A stretch of 64,000 nt of DNA from Caldimonas brevitalea. GTDB taxonomy: Bacteria; Pseudomonadota; Gammaproteobacteria; Burkholderiales; Burkholderiaceae_C. Under the pieces are notes generated by a model, which made no database searches, was not told the DNA's origin, and was given only the letters and a program-made list of their open reading frames with translations. Location: positions 4,154,001-4,218,000 of the forward strand of contig NZ_CP011371.1 in the NCBI RefSeq assembly GCF_001017435.1, read 5' to 3'. The position numbers were made by a program, and so were the translations under genes. Below, in pieces: positions 15,748 through 22,298 of the stretch (position 1 is its first letter; each line of letters opens with the position of its first letter).

Positions 15748-16125
15748 CTACCGCAACATGCTTGCCCTCACCCATGACTCGAAAGGACGCTCACGTACGG
15801 CCTGAACAGGTACCAACAGTCCGTGATCGTTGTCGATGACAGCGCGGGTCTGGGGAGGTACGGCCTGTAGCAGTGCTTCAACAAGGGCGCTGTCCCTCCA
15901 TTCGATCAAATACCCGGCGGGCTCCGTCAACAACTCGGAGAGCCGCCTACGCTCATCTTCGTCGAAGTCGTTTAGCACACTGTCATCCCGGAGGACCGAA
16001 AGCCAACCTTCGGAGCGTTCGATCATGATCTGACCGTTCGCTCCAGTTTCTCCACCGTTCTCGGCCGCCCAAATGTTCGGATTCCATTCGCTTCCCTGCT
16101 CGAGCAACAACACCAGCGTGTTCAT
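15748..16125 (-). CDS. Candidate immunity protein for the Rhs toxin
   Basis: The ATG at 16125 overlaps the Rhs stop codon in an ATGA, giving a 125-residue protein; the longer frame would start inside the toxin. It is small, soluble and acidic ('DDSVLNDFDEDERRRLSELL', 'LIEWRDSALVEALL'), with no leader or membrane segment, as expected for a cytoplasmic immunity protein. I do not recognise a named Imm family. The assignment rests on position: polymorphic toxin genes are normally followed immediately by their cognate immunity gene. Direct evidence of neutralisation is absent. Confidence 0.72.
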   Translation of the reverse strand: MNTLVLLLEQGSEWNPNIWAAENGGETGANGQIMIERSEGWLSVLRDDSVLNDFDEDERRRLSELLTEPAGYLIEWRDSALVEALLQAVPPQTRAVIDNDHGLLVPVQAVRERPFESWVRASMLR

Positions 16126-22100: not shown

Positions 22101-22298
22101 GCCGCGGTGGCTTGCCGCCTCGACGGCCCCCAACTTCTGCTGTTGAGCGGGTGCGAGTTGCATCCGATGGCCCTTCGAGGCCGGTCTGTTGCCGTGACCG
22201 TTCACGTCGCCGGCCGCATGACCGGCCGACAACAACATCCCACTGAGCGCGACGCCCAGACAAGTGCGCCAGAGGTGGCCGATGAATCTTGCAGACAT
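16122..22298 (-). CDS. Exported giant Rhs/YD-repeat polymorphic toxin with nuclease-like tip
   Basis: A 2058-residue protein. Residues 1-29 are a signal peptide. Residues ~140-280 resemble a transglutaminase-like domain with His259 and Asp274, but Ala177 sits where the catalytic Cys belongs, so it is probably inactive. A long series of YD repeats follows (for example [16 protein letters not shown]), closing with the Rhs core signature '[32 protein letters not shown]' (ends ~1864). The last 194 residues form the variable tip: a hydrophobic pre-toxin helix ('[19 protein letters not shown]'), then '[21 protein letters not shown]' (Asp1993/Asp1995, Gln2004, Lys2006), which fits a PD-(D/E)xK restriction-endonuclease-like fold with Q for E. 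Predicted role: contact-dependent or secreted DNase toxin, with the overlapping downstream gene as immunity. A signal peptide rather than a PAAR or VgrG-type N-terminus suggests Sec export. Confidence 0.9.
   Translation of the reverse strand: [2058 protein letters not shown]

Follow-up and report, generated by a model that had tools for sequence, protein, structure and literature searches.

The question raised by a locus in Caldimonas brevitalea (assembly GCF_001017435.1, contig NZ_CP011371.1, positions 4,154,001 to 4,218,000; this stretch of 64,000 nucleotides is referred to as the window) is what kind of activity is carried at the end of the large Rhs protein encoded there, and what role is played by the small gene that begins within its stop codon. 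An earlier reading made from the letters of the sequence alone (the sequence-only reading) had proposed an exported Rhs protein with a nuclease tip and a coupled immunity candidate. Our analyses, in which the gene layout, the predicted fold, the invariant active-site residues, the family-wide pairing and the composition of the cassette are each supported by computation, make it likely, with good though not complete confidence, that the locus encodes an interbacterial polymorphic toxin with a PD-(D/E)xK nuclease tip and its immunity gene. The Rhs reading frame (22298..16122), the partner frame (16125..15748) and their overlap were confirmed as described in that reading, and the parts of the pair are arranged as follows.

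16122..22298, minus strand: Rhs polymorphic toxin gene, 2058 residues (open reading frame and translation; RHS_repeat at 2.8e-36 in Pfam, Rhs_assc_core at 1.1e-19)
22212..22298, minus strand: probable Sec signal peptide, residues 1-29 (n-, h- and c-regions judged by eye, with hydropathy)
21663..21866, minus strand: Transglut_core-like domain, residues 145-212 (Pfam 2e-7, 31.7 bits, cut-off 23)
19881..20084, minus strand: DUF6531, residues 739-806 (Pfam)
16707..19880, minus strand: YD/RHS shell and Rhs-associated core, with DPSG at the end (Pfam and NCBIfam matches)
16446..16706, minus strand: variable linker from Rhs core to nuclease, residues 1865-1951 (sequence differs among tip relatives)
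16122..16445, minus strand: predicted nuclease tip, residues 1952-2058 and stop (family alignments, model and structure matches)
16122..16125, minus strand: ATGA in which the toxin's stop codon and the partner's start codon overlap, reading ...aagccATGAacacg
15748..16125, minus strand: immunity candidate, 125 residues, an alpha+beta family with a VIDNDHG motif (homologues, alignment, model, co-occurrence)

The locus displays the hallmarks of a polymorphic toxin, with YD/RHS repeats and an Rhs-associated core, a variable tip on a conserved body, and an adjacent partner (the last judged by co-occurrence only). The DPSG motif occupies residues 1861-1864 of the Rhs protein and leaves 194 residues behind it, which is the length that had originally been assigned to the tip; that length stands, but the block common to the tip's relatives comprises only the last ~107 residues, and the first ~87 form a linker that varies among them. 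A search with residues 1890-2058 identified 15 proteins among 1194 candidates (the query's own protein being one of the 15). The toxin domain and the immunity family occur in Gamma- and Alphaproteobacteria, Planctomycetota, Actinomycetota and other groups. Where their genes have names, these refer to an Rhs-type body or read hypothetical, and the same tip family is found on differing bodies, some of them of SpvB or TcdB type.

The motifs D1993-x-D1995 and Q2004-V-K2006, from which a PD-(D/E)xK nuclease with Gln in place of Glu had been proposed, were found in the tip, and an alignment of 25 rows (the window, 12 loci and 12 proteins) demonstrated that D1993, D1995, Q2004 and K2006 are invariant in every row, as are Y1972 and H1975 of a YPGHV motif. 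An AlphaFold2 model of the tip displays the restriction-endonuclease-like core, a confidently predicted αβββαβ arrangement of helix, three strands, helix and strand, with D1993 and D1995 on strand 2 and the (E/D/Q)xK motif at strand 3 (Q2004 on that strand and K2006 just past it); model residues 1-83, which belong to the linker part, have a predicted local distance difference test score (pLDDT) below 50. A predicted structure lacking the restriction-endonuclease core had been named in the sequence-only reading as grounds for its refutation, and the reading passes this test. The top structural matches of the model are mostly PD-(D/E)xK nucleases at middling Z, with Can2/Cdn1-type enzymes among them, and Foldseek alone returned no match at E <= 0.001. 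The tip has no match over the cut-off in Pfam or NCBIfam; stray matches below it were seen in Pfam for the window's tip (E 0.062) and for one of the 15 members (E 0.1), in NCBIfam for four families, each matched by a single one of the 25 members (best E 0.02), and in one of three further tips (E 0.07). As judged from the model and the alignment, the tip is most likely a PD-(D/E)xK nuclease with an active site of the D-QxK form.

The pairing of this tip with its neighbour was followed from both sides. A gene of 120-134 residues stands next to the tip in 13 of 13 loci, and also on a Methylosinus plasmid, and a profile of the partner from which the 14 tip loci had been left out found a match beside the tip in 13 of them, the partner at the fourteenth being matched by a profile that includes that partner. 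This co-occurrence spans phyla, and on its strength the 125-residue partner, put forward as an immunity candidate in the sequence-only reading, is probably the cognate immunity gene. A single-sequence search with the partner returned 16 further homologues, and its model has a pLDDT of 94. The window's partner has no Pfam match at E <= 1 and reaches no cut-off in NCBIfam, and the 17-member family has none over the cut-off (four Pfam families matched one member each, best E 0.034). Two of the related loci display further features of their own: at a Steroidobacter locus (L021 8001-8521) the match is confined to the end of the tip and lies in a disrupted frame, which an intact partner gene overlaps by four bases, and on the Methylosinus plasmid pOB3b3 (L037 5069-11662) three short Rhs genes with a near-identical core and different tips stand among IS6, IS66 and IS630 transposases as a toxin-cassette array.

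A search of 299 family genomes that began with the partner, and thereby displayed the pairing from the partner's side, found a match in one genome besides its own, where the partner homologue lies one base from a 489-residue protein whose end resembles the tip (hhalign probability 99.6%, E 3.5e-24, against the tip profile). This distant tip retains both Asp residues and the Lys and has EVK where the window's tip has QVK, so that the presence of Glu at the aligned position strengthens the reading of Gln as its replacement; neither the Tyr nor the His of YPGHV is retained in it. TnsA and MspJI are other PD-(D/E)xK nucleases with Q-x-K, but are not known as toxins with immunity partners, and the existence of QxK and ExK tips with homologous immunity proteins provides a natural test of the role of the Gln form.

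The competing explanation that survives best is that the tip cuts RNA, specifically tRNA, in place of DNA, as some toxins of contact-dependent growth inhibition systems that share the PD-(D/E)xK fold are known to do. We regard it as a possible but distinctly less probable account, since most of the top fold matches are enzymes known as DNA nucleases (although the Can2/Cdn1-type enzymes among them include some that also act on RNA), and the Tyr and His of the YPGHV motif are absent from the distant tip.

The protein on which the nuclease is carried runs in the order leader, transglutaminase-like domain, DUF6531, RHS repeats, Rhs-associated core and tip. The signal peptide that had been called at its beginning is borne out as a hydrophobic leader (best 12-residue mean hydropathy 1.94, counted from M1; otherwise judged by eye), the Rhs ATG is preceded by AGGGG, and an Rhs paralogue in the same genome has a leader of its own. 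The reported lack of a PAAR domain also held in a Pfam search of the Rhs protein, and the transglutaminase-like domain at residues 145-212 had been missed. In that domain Ala177 occupies the position of the catalytic Cys, while His259 and Asp274 are retained just past the Transglut_core match; the Cys is likewise missing in 10 of the 11 distinct sites at which this stretch is represented (10 sites in other family genomes, and the paralogue). Because of this Ala-for-Cys replacement, the carrier falls in an architecture published in 2012, in which signal peptide, inactive transglutaminase and RHS repeats were described together (Zhang et al. 2012, PMC3482391), and, if its leader is real, it is by architecture a member of the inactive transglutaminase-RHS secreted toxins. 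As that class is listed in the same paper under Sec and type II secretion, the inactive domain ahead of the RHS repeats brings the Sec reading into agreement with it; Sec export would also agree with the leader and with the missing PAAR domain.

Several observations weigh against this account of export and release. One database gene call starts the Rhs protein at M46, which is likewise preceded by AAGGG and which would remove the leader, and the genome also carries two genes for the type VI secretion system (T6SS) sheath protein VipB. A candidate aspartyl-autoprotease pair is formed by D1838 and D1861, as in the Rhs consensus PxxxxDPxG with two catalytic Asp residues followed by W, L or F (PMC8765631), but a Thr follows DPSG here, so that self-cleavage may be considered plausible and nothing firmer.

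Delivery of the nuclease tip by a T6SS, as PAAR-less cargo, must be weighed at this point. Besides the two VipB genes, the genome contains six PAAR matches, two of which fall in reading frames (1555 and 1470 residues) with a weak match to this Rhs body, which indicates that the genome encodes Rhs proteins of the T6SS type alongside it, and DUF6531, present here, is common in T6SS Rhs proteins. The absence of PAAR from this protein, the hydrophobic leader, a distance of about 1.7 Mb to the nearer VipB gene, and the listing of the inactive transglutaminase class under Sec and type II secretion (PMC3482391) nevertheless render such delivery improbable. That the Gln form is catalytically dead, leaving the tip to act through binding alone, would account for Gln in place of the usual acidic residue, but is very improbable given that Gln is present in every one of the 25 aligned rows, that the partner gene is retained beside the tip, and that a D-[EQ]xK signature is ascribed to each of the ten Tox-REase clades (PMC3482391, section 22), so that the Gln form by itself is no novelty. 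A toxin aimed at eukaryotes, in keeping with the SpvB- and TcdB-type bodies of some tip relatives, is just as hard to credit, because the tip has a dedicated family of partners next to it (detected in 13 of 14 loci by the profile built without them, and in the remaining locus by a profile that includes it), which points to a risk of self-intoxication in bacteria.

For the interbacterial toxin with its nuclease tip, we infer the route of export, the cleavage, the substrate, the entry into target cells, the translational coupling and the neutralisation along the following lines. The signal peptide would take the Rhs body across the inner membrane, and the inactive transglutaminase-like domain may keep the protein at the cell surface. 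The shell of YD repeats would enclose the C-terminal tip and may release it by means of the conserved Asp pair, after which the ~107-residue tip would cut nucleic acid, most likely DNA, in a metal-dependent reaction inside a neighbouring cell. In the producer, ATGA coupling would yield the partner, which would bind and block the tip.

Tip and partner were probably swapped in as one cassette, a conclusion supported by computation from composition and from the paralogue. The fraction of G and C at third codon positions falls from 0.869 in the Rhs body to 0.615 in the tip, and the partner has 0.675 (the short YD-repeat gene described below has 0.747, the gene that follows the pair 0.786, and four further window genes range from 0.718 to 0.839), and a GC content unlike that of the shell is a stated trait of Rhs tips (PMC8636562). 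The paralogue (L002 1009-7164, minus strand) is 53% identical over residues 72-1891, with 40 of 50 positions identical in residues 1801-1850 and then 24 of 50 and 10 of 50 in the next two blocks; identity is lost after about residue 1900, beyond which it bears a different tip. Its stop is overlapped by four bases by a 104-residue partner gene (L002 698-1012, minus strand), and neither that tip nor that partner has a Pfam match. The profiles of the window's tip and partner each have one match in the genome.

Two further genes flank the pair.

22461..22721, minus strand: mini-YD gene, 86 residues, a hydrophobic leader and two YD/RHS repeats (Pfam RHS_repeat 3.1e-8)
15262..15681, minus strand: next gene, 139 residues, weak DUF6896 match (Pfam 2.4e-5, 24.8 bits; cut-off 27)

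The mini-YD protein is the least explained part of the locus. Its gene lies 162 nucleotides upstream of the Rhs start, and two more copies, 61 and 65% identical, lie upstream of the Rhs paralogue, making three in the genome; pairwise, they display nonsynonymous divergence (dN) of about 0.33-0.38 and synonymous divergence (dS) of about 1.0-1.7, so that dN amounts to roughly a quarter to a third of dS, the latter near saturation and both from short genes. The 298 other genomes of the family yielded no stand-alone copy. The linkage of these genes to both Sec-type Rhs genes suggests that the mini-YD protein may act with signal-peptide Rhs proteins; the data are also compatible with leftovers of duplicated Rhs beginnings. 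To our knowledge, the assembly of signal-peptide Rhs toxins outside the Gram-negative inner membrane is not understood, and the mini-YD protein offers a handle on that process. We raise as a long shot that the secreted mini-YD protein is a dedicated third part of Sec-exported Rhs toxins, which could serve to cap, assemble or anchor the shell beyond the inner membrane, where T6SS loading machinery is unavailable, and which, together with the two unmodelled families, would constitute an undescribed exported Rhs system. Between the two copies upstream of the paralogue lies a reading frame of 135 residues (L044 9107-9514, minus strand; genome 3548106-3548513) that could be a small partner gene.

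On the other side, the DUF6896-like gene (15262-15681) begins 66 nucleotides past the partner stop and may be the remaining immunity gene of a previous tip; PMC3482391 describes such a pattern. Elsewhere in the window, positions 13455-14720 (plus strand) encode a predicted peptidase (BSP, PF04450) fused to a peptidase-inhibitor I36/crystallin-like domain.

Among known systems, the closest in kind are the Tox-REase clades 1-10 (PMC3482391), which are likewise C-terminal tips of restriction-endonuclease fold, carried by Rhs proteins among other bodies; their sites are of the D-[EQ]xK form, and many have small immunity genes. The combination YPGHV...TDxD...QVKSG is not among the clade motifs legible in that paper, although the tip may still belong to a clade that has no model; none of the named Tox-REase models in Pfam or NCBIfam matches the tip over the cut-off, and not all clades are known to have a model there. 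With the inactive transglutaminase-RHS toxins of the same paper the carrier shares a signal peptide, a transglutaminase without a full triad, an RHS array and variable tips, and no essential difference was seen. PoNe and PoNi (PMC6688995) share the principle of a polymorphic PD-(D/E)xK nuclease with an adjacent, specific immunity gene. Identity with them was considered and rejected, the PoNe motif Kx3GExnGIDx2YxnYx3ExK given there being absent from the tip when read by eye, and a Pfam search at E <= 1 matching neither DUF1911 nor DUF1910 to the partner or to its 17-member family. The T6SS Rhs effectors RhsA and Rhs1 (PMC8765631, PMC8636562) share the YD shell, the two-Asp autoprotease motif and a tip whose GC content is unlike that of the shell, whereas the protein described here has no PAAR domain, has an N-terminal leader and a transglutaminase-like domain, and places Thr after DPxG. 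As a polymorphic toxin with immunity, the system is of an ordinary kind. The families of its toxin and of its immunity protein appear to be new as far as Pfam, NCBIfam and a limited look at the literature show, and neither database has so far contained the toxin domain or the immunity family that the locus defines.
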